Shown here: in pieces, positions 5,172 to 50,881 of the stretch | Position numbering within the stretch: the stretch's first letter is position 1 | How the letters are laid out: each line of letters opens with the position of its first letter | Source of the DNA: Paenibacillus endoradicis | GTDB lineage: Bacteria > Bacillota > Bacilli > Paenibacillales > Paenibacillaceae | Assembly (NCBI RefSeq): GCF_024721975.1 | Contig: NZ_JANQBB010000002.1 | Location: 868,001 to 932,000, forward strand | Direction of reading: 5' to 3' | Length of the DNA: 64,000 bases | Translations under genes and position numbers: made by a program | Notes under the pieces: model-generated | The model's input: the letters and a program-made list of their open reading frames with translations, nothing else | The model's database searches: none | What the model was told of the DNA's origin: nothing

Positions 5172-5290
5172 TAATTGCTTCATACTCATCACTTGACTAA
5201 TCAATTGATTCATTACGACTATATTTCCAATACATTTTATCGATAACCAATTAATTAAATACATTAATGAAAATTAAGGGAGCGAACATT

Positions 5291-6235
5291 ATGACACAAA
5301 TATTAGGTCATCATCATACATCTATGCTTACTAAAAACGCTGCACAAAACATGCAGTTCTACACTGGAGTATTAGGTCTTCGATTAGTAAAGAAAACGGT
5401 TAATCAAGACTCACCGGATATGTATCATTTGTTTTATGGTGATGAAATAGGAAGCCCTGGTACAGAGCTTACTTTCTTCGAGATGCCAATGGCTGGACAT
5501 ACACAGCCTGGAACTAATGCAATTAACTTGATCGGATTGCTAGTGCCTTCATATAATAGCCTTTTGTATTGGGAGCAACGCTTAAGTGATATGGCAGTAA
5601 TCCATGACCCAATTACGACCTATCATGGATATGATGCGCTACACTTCCAAGATCCTGATGGACTACGCCTTGTACTATTGAGTAATGAAGGATTAGATAT
5701 TCCCGGGCATTGGCGATATTGGGGTGACTCTCCTGTACTAGAGGAGCATCATATTCTTGGAATGGGACCTATTGGCATCTCTGTTCGCAACTTGAATGCA
5801 ACAACTGAATTACTCCGAGATACGTTTGGATATACAGTTAAAACAAGCTCAGAGTCTAGTGTGATACTGCAAGCTATTCAAGGAGAACAATGGGGAGAAA
5901 TTGTATTAACACAAGAGGAAGGAACTCGTGAACGTCCTGGTAAAGGTAGTGTTCATCATCTTGCGATTCGCGTTGCTGATCAACAAGAACTTGCTAAGTG
6001 GAATGAGATTATAAGAGGTCTAGGCTATTCTACAACTGGTGTCGTTGAGCGCTACTACTTTACAAGTGTTTACTTCCGAGATCGCAACAACATTATGATT
6101 GAGCTTGCTACAGATGGTCCTGGCTTTATGGTGGACTCAGACATTTCAGAGCTAGGCAAACATCTAGATCTACCACCGTTTCTTGAAGGACGACGCGCTG
6201 AAATAGAAGCTTCATTATCACCACTACATTCTTAA
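5291..6235 (+). CDS. Ring-cleaving dioxygenase, glyoxalase (VOC) fold, MhqO/MhqA family
   Basis: A 314-residue protein made of two VOC modules. The first starts ILGHHHTSMLTKN and contains FYTGVLGLRLVKKTVNQD. The second holds GSVHHLAIRV (His ligand) and NIMIELATDGPG (Glu ligand). These residues match the metal site of the MhqO/MhqE/MhqA dioxygenases, which are thought to open hydroquinone or catechol rings during quinone stress. The start at 5291 is supported by GGGAG eight bases upstream; the ATG at 5267 has none. It follows the MarR gene by 119 bases and precedes the monooxygenase by 80, in one direction. The exact substrate is unknown. Confidence 0.85.
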   Translation: MTQILGHHHTSMLTKNAAQNMQFYTGVLGLRLVKKTVNQDSPDMYHLFYGDEIGSPGTELTFFEMPMAGHTQPGTNAINLIGLLVPSYNSLLYWEQRLSDMAVIHDPITTYHGYDALHFQDPDGLRLVLLSNEGLDIPGHWRYWGDSPVLEEHHILGMGPIGISVRNLNATTELLRDTFGYTVKTSSESSVILQAIQGEQWGEIVLTQEEGTRERPGKGSVHHLAIRVADQQELAKWNEIIRGLGYSTTGVVERYYFTSVYFRDRNNIMIELATDGPGFMVDSDISELGKHLDLPPFLEGRRAEIEASLSPLHS

Positions 6236-6315
6236 TGTGTATGCTTTCGGTGCTACTTTTTATTCACAATGAAGTTTACCATGTATCTAATAAAAAGTTT
6301 TAGGAGGAGATTATT

Positions 6316-7377: not shown

Positions 7378-7485
7378 GATGATGTGGACTAAGAAGTCCC
7401 ACTATTACATTCGAACTCATCATTTGTGCTCCCCTTTAGAGCAATTTGATTTCATATTTTTAACTTAATGAATTAGTCAAAACAA

Positions 7486-7517
7486 AAACTAGACCTAACA
7501 ATGTGTAGGTCTAGTTT
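7486..7517 (-). terminator. Hairpin terminator between convergent transcripts
   Basis: AAACTAGACCTA and TAGGTCTAGTTT form a perfect 12-bp stem with an 8-base loop. The minus-strand side is followed by a T-rich run (TTTTTGTTTT), while the plus side lacks one. It therefore best fits the end of the degraded minus-strand GNAT gene, though it may also stop the monooxygenase transcript. Confidence 0.6.
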
Positions 7518-7572
7518 AGAAGTAATCTTCAATGATAACAACTCAATAGCTAATCTTTAATATCTTCTTGAT

Positions 7573-7797
7573 TTAACCCAAAAATTCTGCTGGGCATTTC
7601 AATTCACCTTTTATCGATTGTAGTTTTCCTTCCATAACTTCATATACCATAAACACTTCATCAGACACTTCGAATTGTTTCAATTCTAAACCAAATTGTC
7701 TAGCTGGTTGAAATCCGAATCGTGGATAATACGTAGGATGACTGATTATCAGAATAAGACCATAACCTAACTCTTTGCAGCGGCTTATTCCTTTCTA
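7573..7797 (-). pseudogene. C-terminal remnant of a GNAT acetyltransferase
   Basis: The frame ending in TAA at 7573 reads KELGYGLILIISHPTYYPRF and continues GFQPARQFG, then a VYEVMEGKL tail. HPxYYPRFGFxPA is the signature of a common bacterial GNAT family in which it follows the acetyl-CoA site. An in-frame stop just above 7797 ends the reading frame and no N-terminal half was found, so about 100 residues are missing. The remaining part of the 495-base gap 7378-7872 holds the terminator at 7486-7517 and nothing else recognised. Confidence 0.65.
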
Positions 7798-7872
7798 TGT
7801 ACTATCTTGCATGCACTAATCTGTATATACTATTTTGCATGGCAACTTTAATTTCACCTAACAACTATGTTG

Positions 7873-8361
7873 CTATACGCGCTCTACGCAGCAAATAACG
7901 TCTCTTCTAATTTCTTTAAATGACATATTATTAAAAGGACCTTCAATAAATCTGTTATTAAAAATCGGATTAGGATGACTCAATGATTCATATCGGATTT
8001 CTTCACTATCGTTTAGTATATTCTCACTAACAAATAGAAGATACGTTGTTCCTTCATGTGAAAGCACTTCTGCTGATTGAATGTTAATGACTTGACCTAC
8101 TTTATCTTCAAGCCCTTTATATTGATCAAGAACTTTAATTGCAACTTCTTCAATATTTCGATCAGTCATCAATGAAGCCATTATTTCTCCAATTACGATA
8201 TAATCTGATTGATCAACAATCTCTTTCAATGTTTGTAATGAGTTATCCAGATTAACATTATATATGCTAGCAACAAATGCGTTATTAGTTGCTGTTTGTG
8301 TACTACAAGATGTCAGAATGAAACATAGCAGTGTTCCTACTACATAGCGACTTAACTTCAT
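7873..8361 (-). CDS. Hypothetical lipoprotein
   Basis: A 162-residue protein with a signal peptide and a lipobox (LCFILTSC, Cys about 19), so it should be anchored to the outer face of the membrane. The rest is a small mixed alpha/beta domain with no motif I recognise. SDYIVIGEIMASL and VLDQYKGLEDKVGQVINI resemble strands of a small extracellular sensing or binding domain also seen in other Bacillus lipoproteins. Two adjacent cysteines lie near the C terminus (VICCVERV). It is not clearly part of an operon; a small membrane protein gene lies 44 bases upstream on the same strand and may be co-transcribed. Confidence 0.6.
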   Translation of the reverse strand: MKLSRYVVGTLLCFILTSCSTQTATNNAFVASIYNVNLDNSLQTLKEIVDQSDYIVIGEIMASLMTDRNIEEVAIKVLDQYKGLEDKVGQVINIQSAEVLSHEGTTYLLFVSENILNDSEEIRYESLSHPNPIFNNRFIEGPFNNMSFKEIRRDVICCVERV

Positions 8362-18384: not shown

Positions 18385-18575
18385 AGAAAATTCGGTGAAA
18401 GCAATCAGGCAGGTATTCTGGCTTAAGTATTAACATCTATACAACCTTCCCAGTTCCCCAGTGGTATATCGTATAGACTACTCTTTTACAGCGGCGGGAC
18501 CGCGTGGGAATTACACCCACTTCCCTTTTAACCAATCGATAGTTCAACTTGTCTATCATCCATTGGCACCTGAAG
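18385..18575 (-). ncRNA. Cobalamin (AdoCbl-type) riboswitch
   Basis: Read on the minus strand, the order of conserved boxes is GGTGCC (near 18570), AAGGGAAGTGGGTGTAATTC, then CACGCGGTCCCGCCGCTGTA, a GGGGAACTGGGAAGG segment and the B12 box AAGCCAGAATACCTGCCTG (18403-18425). This is the classical cobalamin riboswitch. It controls the T-AA-S importer through the terminator at 18299. It occupies most of the 417-base gap 18259-18675. Confidence 0.93.
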
Positions 18576-18660
18576 CTAGCTATGTAATTGTATACTCATC
18601 TCATATCATTATAATGTATTTCACTTACTATAAGAGATTAATTATTCAACAAAAAAAAGA

Positions 18661-34797: not shown

Positions 34798-34871
34798 CTT
34801 CAATCCCTCTATTTCATGTTTGAAGCTACGCTGTTGTTAGCTCTCAAAGTAATATTTTTAGTGGTTAGCTT

Positions 34872-35304
34872 CATATTCGATGTCGAATACAATACGAAGA
34901 AATCATCGTTATCAAAGTCCGATTTTTGAACTTCCTCTTCCAATGAAGGTTCAAAAATCGGGCTTTCAGATCCAAGAAGATGACCCACAGCGGAAACGAG
35001 TAGCACAGCGTACGTTTTGTGTACGTGAGCACACGCAGGCTTTCGATGGGGGACATATTCGATGTCGAATACACTACGAAGCAAATCATCGTTATCAAAG
35101 TCCGCTATTTGAACTTCCTCTTCCAATGAAGGTTCAAAAAGCGGGCTTTCAGATCCAAGAAGATGACCCACAGCGGAAACGAGTAGCACAGCGTACGTTT
35201 TGTGTACGTGAGCACACGCAGGCTTTCGATGGGGGACATATTCGATGTCGAATACACTACGAAGCAAATCATCGTTATCAAAGTCCGCTATTTGAACTTC
35301 CTCT
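34872..35304 (+). repeat. Tandem array of 182-183 bp structured repeat, about 2.4 units
   Basis: CATATTCGATGTCGAATAC recurs at 34872, 35054 and 35237. Each full unit contains a near-perfect hairpin (left arm AAAGTCCG..., right arm ...CGGGCTTT, about 22 bp, 9-base loop), a core from GATGACCCACAGCGG to CGATGGGGGAC with its own GTACG/CGTAC hairpin, and a palindrome ATTCGATGTCGAAT. In the first unit the stem has CCGATTTTTG/CAAAAATCGG; in the second CCGCT/AGCGG, a compensatory pair change. The array ends 15 bases from the stop of the epimerase gene and fills the 521-base gap 34798-35318. The core is shared with 47741-48322. The long ORFs across it are repeat artefacts. Confidence 0.9.
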
Positions 35305-35318
35305 ATAGTGTAACATAA

Positions 35319-36251
35319 TTATGTGCTCTTCTTTATCCATTCTATCGTCTCCCTTAAACTCTGTGTACGATCCGTAAAAGGAATAGTTCCCAATGCTTTT
35401 TCTAGTTTTGTTGCATTCAGTATGACAGGTGTTTCAGTTAGATACATCATTTCTTTTTGTTCGCGCATAAACGAAGAGAATAGTGCTAGAAAAGCAACAT
35501 GCTTAGATGTCGCAACTCGAATCTTAGGACGATATCCTAATAATTGTTGTAATAATAATGATAGCTCTTGTCCTGATATTTTCAAACATCCTGGAATATT
35601 CCAATGTTGATTGAATGAAGCAGGATTAAGCGCGAGTGCGTATATAATTTCTGCAACATCGTTTGTATATGCAAACTCGCGTGTTACATCCATTCTTCCT
35701 ACAAAATAAGCAGCTTTGTTCTGAACCGCAGCTTGCAGAGTTCCATGTAAAATCGTATTTTTTGCATTTGGTCCAAATACGTCCGGCACATGTGCAATCA
35801 AATACGGAATGCCACTTTCTTTGACCAACGACTCCATTTTCAATCGTAGTTTACCTTTCTTCGTATGTGGGAATTTCATAACAACCTCATCTACTGCTTG
35901 AGGTTGTTTGCCATATGCATAGATATTATCAACTAAAATAAACTTGCTCTGGCTTCTTTTTGCAGCTTCTAACATATTCACTAAACATGGGATATGCGTT
36001 TCATTCCACTTTTGATATGGGAAGCTCACAGCATGAATGATCGTATCAATATCTTCACATGCATCAAGTAAATTCTGTACATTCAATACATCCCCAGAAA
36101 CACATGTAACAGACTTGTTATGACCAAACATTGTTCTTAATTTATCAGCACCACGTGCAAAAGCTACGACCTCAATATTTTGCTTTGTTAATTGTTGTAC
36201 TAATGCATAACCGATACCACCTGTTGCTCCTGCTACTAATACCTTTTTCAT
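35319..36251 (-). CDS. NAD-dependent epimerase/dehydratase-like (atypical SDR)
   Basis: A 310-residue extended/atypical SDR. VLVAGATGGIGYALVQQL is the NAD-binding start, VSGDVLNVQNLLDACEDIDTIIHA follows the family layout, and DNIYAYGKQP contains the Tyr usually paired with Lys in this family. Family members act on nucleotide sugars or small ketones, so the substrate is open. It follows a TetR gene by 64 bases, with a TetR-type operator (36272-36291) in between, and another copy of the same operator lies before the TetR gene. It therefore looks like the target of that repressor. Confidence 0.78.
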   Translation of the reverse strand: MKKVLVAGATGGIGYALVQQLTKQNIEVVAFARGADKLRTMFGHNKSVTCVSGDVLNVQNLLDACEDIDTIIHAVSFPYQKWNETHIPCLVNMLEAAKRSQSKFILVDNIYAYGKQPQAVDEVVMKFPHTKKGKLRLKMESLVKESGIPYLIAHVPDVFGPNAKNTILHGTLQAAVQNKAAYFVGRMDVTREFAYTNDVAEIIYALALNPASFNQHWNIPGCLKISGQELSLLLQQLLGYRPKIRVATSKHVAFLALFSSFMREQKEMMYLTETPVILNATKLEKALGTIPFTDRTQSLRETIEWIKKST

Positions 36252-39380: not shown

Positions 39381-39421
39381 AAGCCCGAGAGACAACTGTA
39401 TAAACAGTTTCTCCCAGGCTT
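39381..39421 (-). terminator. Guanidine riboswitch terminator
   Basis: AAGCCTGGGAG pairs with CTCTCGGGCTT around an ACTGT/ACAGT inner stem, followed by TTTTTTT on the minus strand. Its 5' arm overlaps the 3' end of the aptamer (39411-39421), so ligand binding would prevent it forming. Confidence 0.85.
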
Positions 39422-39500
39422 TTATCCTTCCGTGACACAGCATAGCTGTGAGTTTTCTCTCGGACCAGACCAACATATACTGCTACGGAACCCTAGAAAA
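39411..39500 (-). ncRNA. Guanidine-I (ykkC) riboswitch
   Basis: On the minus strand the conserved sequence CTAGGGTTCCG, then GGTCTGGTCCGAGAG, then GTCACGGAAGGATAAAAGCC is unmistakable. It activates the SMR pair when guanidinium accumulates. The rest of 39341-39751 (411 bases) holds this element and, on the other side, the promoter region of the ABC exporter at 39752. Confidence 0.95.
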
Positions 39501-39751
39501 CATTTTAAATATGCAATTACGATATATTATACACATTTCAACCACTATATCAAGAGAGGGATGATAAGATGTACACATTGGCATTAGAACTATCGTATGG
39601 AATTCCTAACAATAAAAAACTTTGCATTTACACTTGAGCTTGACGTAAGGTTAGGTATTATACTCGAACTAATGAATAGTGCAGTTCATATTCAGTTCAC
39701 AACTTATTTATATACTTCATGTTGTAATCGAAAAAGAGAGGGAGTATTTAC

Positions 39752-46739: not shown

Positions 46740-47492
46740 TTAGTTTTCAACTTTCAACACTTCGAACCGGTAACCCTGATATACATAGTTTTGCTTTTGA
46801 TACATTTCTCTCGCTGTATCCTCACCATCTGCAAGTAAAAGAACAGTTTTATGTTCATAATTATCCATCACAAATCGCTGAATTTGACCACCAATTCCTT
46901 TACGCTGTAACGCTTTGACAACAAATATATTATCAATCTCGACCGTTTCAGCTTGTACAATAATTTCAGCTGATCCAGCGGGGATACCTTCAAAATATGC
47001 TATGACTTGCTGCTTACTTCTGTCATTGAATTGTCGAAGTAGTAGTTGCTGTTTATCCTTTGCGAAGCTCTCACCATATTTCAAATCCTCATCATATTGC
47101 AACTTCAAAAAATCTTCTAGATTAGAGTCTGTAACTTGCTGAACATCGATGGTTACAATTTTTGCAACTGTGAATGTACTTGGCTGAATAGCGTACAATT
47201 CTAAATATCCAATTTGATAGCTTTCTGCGGATAAATACGTAGTAATCTCATCTAAAATTTTTATATTAGCTGGGAAAATAAATTTCATATGTTGCTGATT
47301 ATTCGCTTTATGGAAAGTATGTATTGCTAGTTCAATTTCTTTAAATTGTGTTAGCGTAGGCATCTTCTTCCATTGAATAAAATTACTATCATAACGATTC
47401 AGCATTTCAGGGTAATGGTATTGTCGGTACATTTCATTATCATTAATAATGTGTCCCAATATATGAATATGTTCAAATGTTATGTTGTTCAT
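46740..47492 (-). CDS. GNAT family acetyltransferase with extra N-terminal domain
   Basis: A 250-residue protein. The first 110 residues are a separate domain (HTFHKANNQQHMKFIFPANI and LDEITTYLSAESYQIGYLEL), followed by a GNAT domain with LQRKGIGGQIQRFVMDN (acetyl-CoA loop) and YQKQNYVYQGYRFEVLK at the end. This two-part layout is seen in several Bacillus GNATs of unknown substrate. No ribosome site stronger than moderate was seen. The second repeat array begins 249 bases upstream of its start. Confidence 0.78.
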   Translation of the reverse strand: MNNITFEHIHILGHIINDNEMYRQYHYPEMLNRYDSNFIQWKKMPTLTQFKEIELAIHTFHKANNQQHMKFIFPANIKILDEITTYLSAESYQIGYLELYAIQPSTFTVAKIVTIDVQQVTDSNLEDFLKLQYDEDLKYGESFAKDKQQLLLRQFNDRSKQQVIAYFEGIPAGSAEIIVQAETVEIDNIFVVKALQRKGIGGQIQRFVMDNYEHKTVLLLADGEDTAREMYQKQNYVYQGYRFEVLKVEN

Positions 47493-47687
47493 GACTTTCT
47501 CTCATTCCTTTAGATATTATTTTCATACGGAGGAAATCCTTCTACTCTACTTTTTGGCAGACTATTTCTCTCCTATCATTATGCACAAACAAAAAGGCTC
47601 CTGCCAGTACAAATACTAAATCATATTATTTCCCCGGAAATTGACGGATTTGGTAACTCTATGGAATCATATCATAATATATTGCAA

Positions 47688-47735
47688 AAACAGACAAGCT
47701 ATCATCTCATTGCTAAGATGATAGCTTGTCTGTTT
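47688..47735. terminator. Bidirectional terminator next to repeat array
   Basis: AAACAGACAAGCTATCATCT pairs perfectly with its complement (47716-47735) around an 8-base loop. It separates the GNAT gene upstream region from the repeat array, which begins 6 bases later. Confidence 0.75.
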
Positions 47736-47740
47736 GCTGC

Positions 47741-48322
47741 TTTTTGAACTACCTCTTAATAATGAAGGTTCAAAACATTCGCTTGTCAGCATCAAGAAGA
47801 TGACCCACAGCGGAAACGAGTAGCACAGCGTACGTTTTGTGTACGTGAGCACACGCAGGCTTTCGATGGGGAGGCATATTCAATGTCGAACAATCTACGT
47901 TAGCATAATCATCGTGATCACGAGTGGATGTTTTGGGCTACCTCTTAATAATGAAGGTTCAAAACATTCGCTTGTCAGCATTAAGAAGATGACCCACAGC
48001 GGAAAAGAGTAGCACAGCGTACGTTTTGTGTACGTGAGCACACGCAGGCTTTCGATGGGGAGGCATATTCAATGTCGAATAATCTACGTTAGCATAATCA
48101 TCGTGATCACGAGTGGATGTTTTGGGCTACCTCTTAATAATGAAGGTTCAAAACATTCGCTTGTCAGCATTAAGAAGATGACCCACAGCGAAAACGAGTA
48201 GCACAGCGTACGTTTTGTGTACGTGAGCACACGCAGGCTTTCGATGGGGAGGCATATTCAATGTCGAACAATCTACGTTAGCATAATCATCGTGATCACG
48301 AGTGGATGTTTTGGGCTACCGC
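47741..48322 (+). repeat. Tandem array of a 189-bp structured repeat, three cores
   Basis: TGACCCACAGCG recurs at 47801, 47990 and 48179 (period 189). Each unit has a hairpin (left arm ...GAGTGGATGTTTTGGGCTACC in parts, right arm GAAGGTTCAAAACATTCGC), a core almost identical to that at 34872-35304 and a tail AATCTACGTTAGCATAATC. The stem sequence differs completely from the first locus but still pairs; five non-Watson-Crick positions are all G-U when read as + strand RNA. The array ends exactly at the stop codon of the permease gene at 48323. Together with the terminator at 47688 it explains the 830-base gap 47493-48322. Confidence 0.9.
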
Positions 48323-49054
48323 TTAAACTTCTTTTCTTTGTAAATATATATAACCCAAGGCAAAGAACAGCACAAAACTCCCACCAACTACAGTTAATAG
48401 CTGCTCCCATGGTATGAAAAATACATCCTGATGATCCTCTGCGATGTACATCATGGCAAAGGGCTGTGCCCAAGGATAATAACGAGCAAAGTCCGCTGAA
48501 TTCATAACGAGAATGGTCGGGATAGTGAAAATGACATTAACTGCAAAAGGTGCAGCAAAAGACTTGAATAACGTTGATAACCATAATTGCAGTGCAATGA
48601 GAGGTAAAGTTGCTACCCAGCCACCAAATATACTTTTTACAATAAGCACCATCGGGAAAGGTTCACCATAATCTTTCATTAACCCTACAGAAAGCAATAC
48701 TAGTGCATAAAGTAATTGCATAATAAGGGTAATGCCGATAATGATTACGAACTTGGAAACATAAACTTTCCCTCTCGTCGTTGGTAAGGCAAATAATTGT
48801 TTCCACCCTCCTGCCTGATGTTCATAGCGGCATATGATCGCAGCTAACACCCCCGTCATTAGAGGAAGAAACATTATAGCATATACTAAGTTCACCATCA
48901 TAGAAGTATAAATATATTGAAAATTCTCGGTACCTTCCATATCTAACTCGACATTCCATGCAATAGCTAACACAAGTGCTGGTCCAATTAATATGAACGG
49001 AATAATATTCGTCTTTCTTAACTTATACCATTCTGCTTGTAGCAAATTAACCAC
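48323..49054 (-). CDS. ABC-2 type permease (lantibiotic-immunity-like), third gene
   Basis: A 243-residue permease with six helices. LLQAEWYKLRKTNIIPFILIG is the standard opening of the lantibiotic protection/bacitracin ABC permease group, and RYEHQAGGWKQLFALPTTRGKVYVSKF is the cytoplasmic loop (about 70-96) repeated in its partner. GTG at 49054 directly follows the previous stop. Two such permeases plus one ATPase (FEG-type order) typically protect against antimicrobial peptides. A two-component system lies upstream at 51456-53485. Confidence 0.82.
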   Translation of the reverse strand: MVNLLQAEWYKLRKTNIIPFILIGPALVLAIAWNVELDMEGTENFQYIYTSMMVNLVYAIMFLPLMTGVLAAIICRYEHQAGGWKQLFALPTTRGKVYVSKFVIIIGITLIMQLLYALVLLSVGLMKDYGEPFPMVLIVKSIFGGWVATLPLIALQLWLSTLFKSFAAPFAVNVIFTIPTILVMNSADFARYYPWAQPFAMMYIAEDHQDVFFIPWEQLLTVVGGSFVLFFALGYIYLQRKEV

Positions 49055-50673: not shown

Positions 50674-50741
50674 ATCTCTCACCTCATAATTGAGTATAGA
50701 GAGTCAAGGTTAAAAGGAGGTGCCTGCAAAGGTTAAATTTT

Positions 50742-50796
50742 GTTTAAAAATGCGGGCTTTAATAACGATGAGTAAGCTAACGTAGATTAATCGACA
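50742..50796 (-). repeat. Solitary, inverted fragment of the structured repeat
   Basis: Read on the minus strand, ATGTCGATTAATCTACGTTAG followed by CTTACTCATCG resembles the tail of the units at 47741-48322 (ATGTCGAACAATCTACGTTAG is the matching part there, shown in two pieces across 47883-47903), and AAAGCCCGCATTTTTAAAC resembles the left hairpin arm of the 34.9 kb units. The ~70-nt core is absent. The fragment lies in the 208-base gap between the SRPBCC gene and the ABC operon. Confidence 0.6.
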
Positions 50797-50881
50797 TCGG
50801 TTATGAAGCGAACTTGGGAAATCTAGCATAAGCTTCCGATGTATGTTTCTTGTAGACCACCTATCCATGTTTTCAATGGTT

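Follow-up and report, generated by a model that had tools for sequence, protein, structure and literature searches.

The window, the whole 64-kb stretch analysed, contains two arrays of a structured repeat, each lying in the 3′ flank of a gene on the minus strand. Array 2 (47741..48322, plus strand) consists of three tandem 189-nt units, the repeats being 98% alike to the reference copy, and borders an ABC-2 type permease gene (48323..49054, minus strand), with the right edge of the array at 48322 touching the permease stop codon TTA (48323-48325, read on the minus strand) at a gap of 0 nt. Array 1 (34870..35304, plus strand), made up of two 183-nt units and a leading partial unit, lies 14 nt from the stop codon (35319-35321, read on the minus strand) of a gene of the NAD-dependent epimerase type (35319..36251, minus strand). 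At each of the two loci both flanking genes are on the minus strand. In all, the window holds two copies of a ~170-nt unit in array 1 and three in array 2, every one on the plus strand, and the core pattern gave five matches, all on the plus strand, where shuffles lead to an expectation of none. A degenerate remnant resembling a related unit was found on the minus strand at 50727..50870 (limits set by eye; profile match 50753-50805), and looks to be of the third core type described below, with its folding strand on the minus strand as are the neighbouring genes. At gathering score Rfam returned for the window only a cobalamin riboswitch (18391-18588, minus strand, 99.1 bits) and a guanidine-I riboswitch (39409-39507, minus strand, 83.9 bits), both outside the arrays; at E ≤ 5 for 47680-48340 and at E ≤ 0.5 for 19 loci from relatives, all hits were far under gathering scores.

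The unit folds as a three-way junction in which a long closing stem formed by two arms joins the long hairpin of the core and a third, short hairpin, with 51 pairs in six helices over ~170 nt, the closing arms contributing 19 pairs. The first-pass annotation had proposed that pairing at array 2 is kept only on the plus strand, naming a wobble-rich stem, and this stem, ACGAGTGGATGTTTTGGGC (47920-47938) with its partner (47957-47975), is paired throughout on the plus strand (19/19, 14 Watson-Crick and five G.U), the five G.U pairs becoming A.C on the minus strand as it had stated. The hairpin so formed (47920..47975, plus strand, 19 pairs of which five are G.U) is, however, the junction between neighbouring units of array 2, each of which can close on itself with the same arms. 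The near identity of a ~70-nt core between the two window loci was borne out by comparison. The accompanying claim that the arms share little sequence holds in part, in that the arms of the two loci differ but their outer part, GTTCAAAA/TTTTGAAC, is common to both; moreover the inner arms are of two types that are met again at many further loci, so that the arms are not unique to the window locus.

A covariance model of the fold (R1), built only from 33 units of a more distant relative (G026), matched five units of the window on the plus strand and none on the minus strand, these being 34948..35116 (129.2 bits) and 35131..35299 (133.1 bits) in array 1, and 47768..47939 (a three-way-junction module, 107.6 bits), 47957..48128 (104.1 bits) and 48146..48317 (105.2 bits) in array 2; the window scan also gave a weak partial match (18.2 bits) at 34817-34933. 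Elsewhere, the model scored 156 bits on the folding strand against 24.9 bits on the opposite one.

The repeat belongs to a large family. In a search of one genome per species over 84,980 species, exact matches to the core pattern were found only in four stretches of a draft genome of Candidatus Paenibacillus intestinavium (G001). Family matches number at least 50 in G001, some of them partial, at least 71 in the 5.27-Mb single contig of G003 and at least 87 in G026, with R1 matching at least 90 of the 247 genomes searched around G026 (G026 itself counted) and at least 28 of the 299 genomes drawn from the class, all copy and genome counts being lower bounds from 5-40 candidates scored per genome (9-11 for the model). 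The best-sampled genomes carry dozens to more than 100 dispersed copies in arrays of one to five, although densities are not genome-wide rates, since loci were fetched around known copies. The window aligns with G003 and G001 over long stretches, mostly at ~80-90% identity, which makes a Paenibacillus source very probable. Several other identities were considered and set aside. There were no matches in phages or plasmids and none in viral contigs for two patterns, and a tRNA-like search found none. Both array periods, 183 and 189 nt, are divisible by three and keep frames open, but a protein-coding reading was rejected because many arrays of relatives have other periods, for instance 187 and 188 nt. 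In G003 a second recurring motif, approximately GCTCGTGTACT..CGTACAC.TTGCTGGGT, follows the last unit at six loci (L102, L109, L123, L127, L131, L171); it may be a module in its own right or part of a different core type. An unrelated ~50-nt tandem repeat, GAGAAAGTAACTATATAGC.., adjoins an element copy at a further G003 locus (L107, ~7400-8060) and is missing from the G001 stretch compared with it.

The strand on which the fold is kept had to be judged by comparison. Folding energies were equally good on both strands for unit 35131-35299 (-49.1 on plus, -50.8 on minus) and better on the plus strand for unit 48146-48317 (-50.7 against -43.6), with z-scores of -1.77 and -1.66 for the two strands of a 221-nt stretch. 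The strand cannot be read from the energy of one unit, and comparison rather than single-sequence folding serves as the strand evidence. In an alignment of all 35 matches (34 distinct sequences from 30 loci in 30 genomes, three being G026 units), 34 of the 51 pairs had changed on both sides with 96.6% of cells remaining standard pairs, giving a covariation score of 0.333 against 0.137 when shuffled and at most 0.070 when slid, the alignment being fitted to the model, which favours the score. Two pairs are near-invariant G.U in this alignment, columns 64/82 in 31/33 and columns 45/99 in 29/33. Within G026, a MAFFT alignment of 33 hand-chosen units out of 42 had 29 of 51 pairs changed on both sides and 95.5% standard pairs, with a covariation score of 0.420 (0.163 shuffled, at most 0.094 slid), the structure itself having been derived from that alignment. 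A set of 22 units hand-chosen from 26, almost entirely of the third core type, likewise had compensatory changes in 21 of 55 pairs.

The closing arms gave the broadest view of the asymmetry, 260 units with both end motifs from G003, G026, G001 and the window reducing to 239 distinct arm pairs. Transitions that keep G.U on the folding strand outnumbered those giving A.C by 198 to 36 in G003 (129 distinct arm pairs), 105 to 22 in G026 (63), 56 to 21 in G001 (43) and 9 to 0 in the window (4), although p-values for these counts overstate the case because the copies are related and the events not independent. At least three core types with common ends and junction were recognised in G003, G001 and G026, which looks like the result of core-hairpin exchange. 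The third core type is clear in its strand preference (G.U to A.C 105:17, against 36:42 for the other strand), as is the G026 set (139:27 against 25:58). For the second type the ratio was 41:5, the prediction for the other strand being likewise G.U-rich (88:29). The strand case is weakest for the first core type, which is less clear when taken alone: its helices were only partial in a first alignment, and after realignment the folding strand had 230 G.U to 80 A.C and the predicted structure of the other strand 282 to 170. Since G.U is kept over A.C in three genomes, the strand claim of the first-pass annotation can be taken as right and is, on balance, well supported by these comparisons. At six hand-picked pairs of orthologous units, nine changes were compensatory, 17 were one-sided and kept the pair, 15 were one-sided breaks and seven were others, with five of the broken pairs being A.C; conservation in the same unit pairs was 0.897 in paired and 0.825 in unpaired columns. 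This partly kept pairing hints at selection on resident copies, which pure selfishness would not need.

Both window arrays stand behind stop codons, and the same placement recurs among relatives, the host genes looked at being of unrelated kinds. In G003, 73/87 arrays are antisense to the adjoining gene with a median distance to the stop of 17 nt, and in G026 24/25 with a median of 18 nt. A stop falls within -25..+30 nt of 62/87 arrays in G003 and 19/25 in G026, against backgrounds of 6.4% and 6.9% respectively of intergenic positions and orientations, while distances on the far side of the arrays are broad. In one list of 73 arrays, which leaves out single hits below 80 nt, 55 have a CDS stop near. 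In another, which keeps the 104 of 125 arrays with a clear end motif (21 left out), a CDS stop was present in the searched interval at 82, mostly inside or just before the TA(A/G)AGGTAG-like end. Beyond these genomes, among 45 hand-listed loci (nearly all outside G003 and G026, several per genome, with L280 and L281 nearly identical), at least one gene ends within 12 nt of the array at 24, an antisense gene doing so at 17 and a gene on the folding strand, at the other end, at 10. Both orientations thus occur elsewhere, and the near-fixed orientation is therefore a trait of G003, G026 and the two window arrays rather than of the whole family. Of the proposed plus-strand transcript of repeated RNA modules, the conserved plus-strand fold is the part that is supported, and the mix of orientations among genomes is more in keeping with an inserted element than with a gene dedicated to an RNA. 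An explanation by replication strand was also entertained, a trend by replichore having been seen at first, and was rejected as the orientation follows the host gene.

Comparison of orthologous sites shows gain or loss of the element between close relatives. A window ORF at 5267-6235 (plus strand) ends ...CTA CAT TCT TAA at an empty site (6226..6237), while the G003 orthologue carries the element directly behind a shortened gene and reads ...CTA TAA GAGG straight into the copy. Further filled/empty pairs were found between G003 and G001 (L119/L022, L211/L170, L240/L101 and L012/L103). With junctions judged by eye from sequences with diverged flanks, these pairs are read as insertions at, or within ~5 codons before, the old stop, the element end apparently giving the new stop. 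One filled site lies directly before the ribosome-binding site of the next gene, and at L119 the element sits between genes that look like one operon; the pair L133/L204 proved to be a partial copy in G001, not an empty site. Copy number also varies, array 2 having three units in the window and two in G003, and array 1 two in the window, one in G003 and a lone partial copy in G001. No target-site duplication was readable at the empty sites examined. The element resembles MITEs in being a small non-coding repeat with inverted-repeat ends (the 19-pair arms that close the unit) that is present or absent at orthologous sites.

What is transcribed through the arrays bears on two functional explanations. 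In the window, G003 and G026 the adjoining genes mostly run against the folding strand, so that transcription would be expected through the worse-folding strand, which in the window is the minus strand. Functional antisense RNA modules, nearest to the view of the first-pass annotation, would have the folding strand transcribed toward the neighbouring gene and acting in cis on the 3′ end of its mRNA, or serving as a sponge or ligand-binding RNA. Such a role seems fairly unlikely. A strand-specific conserved fold with near-invariant G.U pairs is as in RNAs, and both the antisense placement in G003 and G026 and the higher conservation of paired columns in orthologous units are in its favour, together with an excess of promoter-like sites around array 2 (10 against a mean of 3.5 expected), six of them on the plus strand before the array. 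These six sites (47421-47678) nevertheless all precede a 20-bp hairpin flanking array 2 on its far side (47688..47735) that is terminator-like on the plus strand, with the tail GCTGCTTTTT (on the minus strand its stem runs out into TTTTTGC, outside the scoring of the terminator scan), and promoter-like sites at array 1 are at chance (4 against 3.4). The unrelated host genes, the sites gained or lost between close species and the 10/45 loci with the folding strand in the sense of a gene ending within 12 nt speak against antisense modules as well.

The same 10 loci, which put the well-folding strand into the mRNA, also count against an element that acts in cis in the 3′ UTR of the sense mRNA. 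Such an ERIC/REP-like element would modulate decay or termination of the upstream transcript, the asymmetry then reflecting selection against a long perfect duplex in the mRNA and not for the other strand. It would account for the position directly behind stop codons and for the site at L119, and a terminator-like hairpin stands next on the gene strand, within 160 nt downstream, at 27/83 loci against 15.8% of shuffles, with none at the other 56 (the ORF caller and terminator finder being simple custom scripts). Precedents for such elements are found in the portions drawn on of the published work on ERIC (PMC2229807) and bcr (PMC3446304). Selection of this kind alone, however, would not yield compensatory keeping of pairs and near-invariant G.U on the opposite strand; mismatches by transversion would do equally well. 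A 3′ UTR role is considered distinctly unlikely.

The search for a mobilising enzyme gave little. Y1 (PF01797), IS110 (PF01548) and TnpB-type zinc ribbon (PF07282) domains had no matches in G003 and G026, with Y1 positive in four of eight genomes searched. Reverse transcriptase (PF00078) had no match in G003, two in G026 and three in G001 (two of the three broken), and the reverse-transcriptase route is therefore excluded, within this search, for G003 alone. There were no element copies in 21 fetched loci around Y1 and reverse-transcriptase genes, 11 of them Y1, nor in 22 fetched loci around IS110 and TnpB-type genes (G171, G014 and G006). Among these genomes G014 has 27 TnpB-type zinc-ribbon matches and G171 has 14 IS110-type matches. 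That Y1, IS110 and TnpB-type searches gave no match in G003 or G026, nor the reverse-transcriptase search in G003, when both genomes are full of copies, counts against the mobile-element reading.

Integron attC sites are strand-specific imperfect palindromes behind stop codons, and attC-type boxes have the form RYYYAAC/GTTRRRY. By analogy, a strand-specific recombinase could act on the Paenibacillus units as folded single-stranded DNA, as on attC sites or the ends of IS200/IS605, with cutting and joining of the folding strand. Their habit as strand-specific imperfect palindromes behind stop codons agrees with this, and is shared with GTAG-REPs in the part of the account drawn on (PMC3733652); the growth of arrays and the lone partial copies would fit repeated insertion at an att-like end. 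Yet Y1 had no match in G003 or G026, inspection by eye showed no attC-type boxes at the element ends looked at, and near-invariance of G.U pairs would be less expected in DNA. Beside host genes running against the G-rich strand the asymmetry is unchanged (14 to 1, nine units). A DNA substrate of this kind is judged very improbable.

Several known repeats resemble the family in description. GTAG-type REPs are dispersed palindromic units lying mostly downstream of genes, often clustered and sometimes in tandem, whose termini often give the adjoining ORF its stop codon, according to the sections available (PMC3733652). Like GTAG-REPs and REPINs, the Paenibacillus units are dispersed behind genes, some in tandem, with an end that often carries the stop codon; in the same partial account, however, REP stems are 5-13 bp and form short hairpins (PMC3733652), where the Paenibacillus unit is a ~170-nt three-way junction. 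A GTAG ahead of the arm is frequent in G003 without being general in the family. A Y1 match, as in the REP/RAYT system, was found in neither G003 nor G026, and the 11 Y1 loci fetched contain no element copy. Enterobacterial ERIC (127 bp) and YPAL (~168 bp) are structured repeats; ERIC is co-transcribed with neighbouring genes with an orientation-dependent effect, and YPAL has filled and empty sites between relatives with target duplications of 3-26 bp, as far as the excerpts of that report go (PMC2229807). The Paenibacillus family is like ERIC/IRU and YPAL/RU-2, by description, in being a structured repeat of similar size with filled and empty sites, but differs from them in host phylum, in its three-way junction, three core types and tandem arrays, and, unlike YPAL, in having no readable target duplication.

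Closer in host, the bcr1-bcr18 interspersed repeats of the Bacillus cereus group, about half of them in transcripts by RNA-seq (UTRs and operon gaps), include the MITE-like bcr1-3 and the predicted RNA elements bcr10 and bcr18 (PMC3446304, in the parts at hand). The family is likened to these repeats of Bacilli by description and not by sequence, and adjacency to stop codons and a three-way fold are not among the bcr features described in those parts (PMC3446304). Pneumococcal BOX is modular and SPRITE enriched near gene 3′ ends, in the accessible portion of PMC3049150; BOX, RUP and SPRITE are likewise high-copy repeats but differ in unit structure and host, whole units being repeated in tandem in Paenibacillus. 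The excerpts of the P. vortex genome paper count 184 global and 231 tandem repeats and give no description of the repeat family (PMC3012674), nor do the portions available of a Paenibacillus transcriptome paper (PMC5670726). A description was likewise not seen in listings of the open-access literature on Paenibacillus repeats, MITEs and structured RNAs, and the ~170-nt folded repeat family is apparently undescribed so far.

Taken together the arrays probably belong, with modest confidence, to a high-copy Paenibacillus family of small structured repeats that are MITE/REP/ERIC-like in habit and mobile or formerly mobile. Its small size, structure, dispersal, adjacency to stops and variable presence follow the habit of REP, ERIC, YPAL and bcr, and the family is taken as mobile or formerly mobile on these grounds, looking like such structured elements rather than one RNA gene. 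Spread would be by a mechanism using the single-stranded folding strand as substrate, the near-invariant G.U pairs favouring RNA somewhat over single-stranded DNA. An insertion close to the last codons would be tolerated because the element end replaces the lost stop, and units would presumably have recombined later to give tandem arrays and lone partial copies. Copies in the window would be transcribed, if at all, mainly on the minus strand as 3′ UTR or operon gap; this complementary strand folds more poorly, and the host mRNA may for that reason be disturbed least. Insertion alone leaves the near-fixed antisense orientation in G003 and G026 unexplained. A bolder form of the same reading, which must be rated unlikely, would make the family a widespread, hundred-copy, strand-specific structured RNA, moving through an RNA intermediate by unrecognised machinery and chosen or kept only at translation stops, where each insertion would rewrite the stop and give the gene an antisense folded 3′ tail.

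The family is a structured element, backed by covariation, that occurs in many copies per genome within a large genus and has no Rfam match. The empty and filled sites of close relatives offer natural tests of how small repeats reach stop codons, and of why the fold is kept on one strand when transcription is expected on the other.
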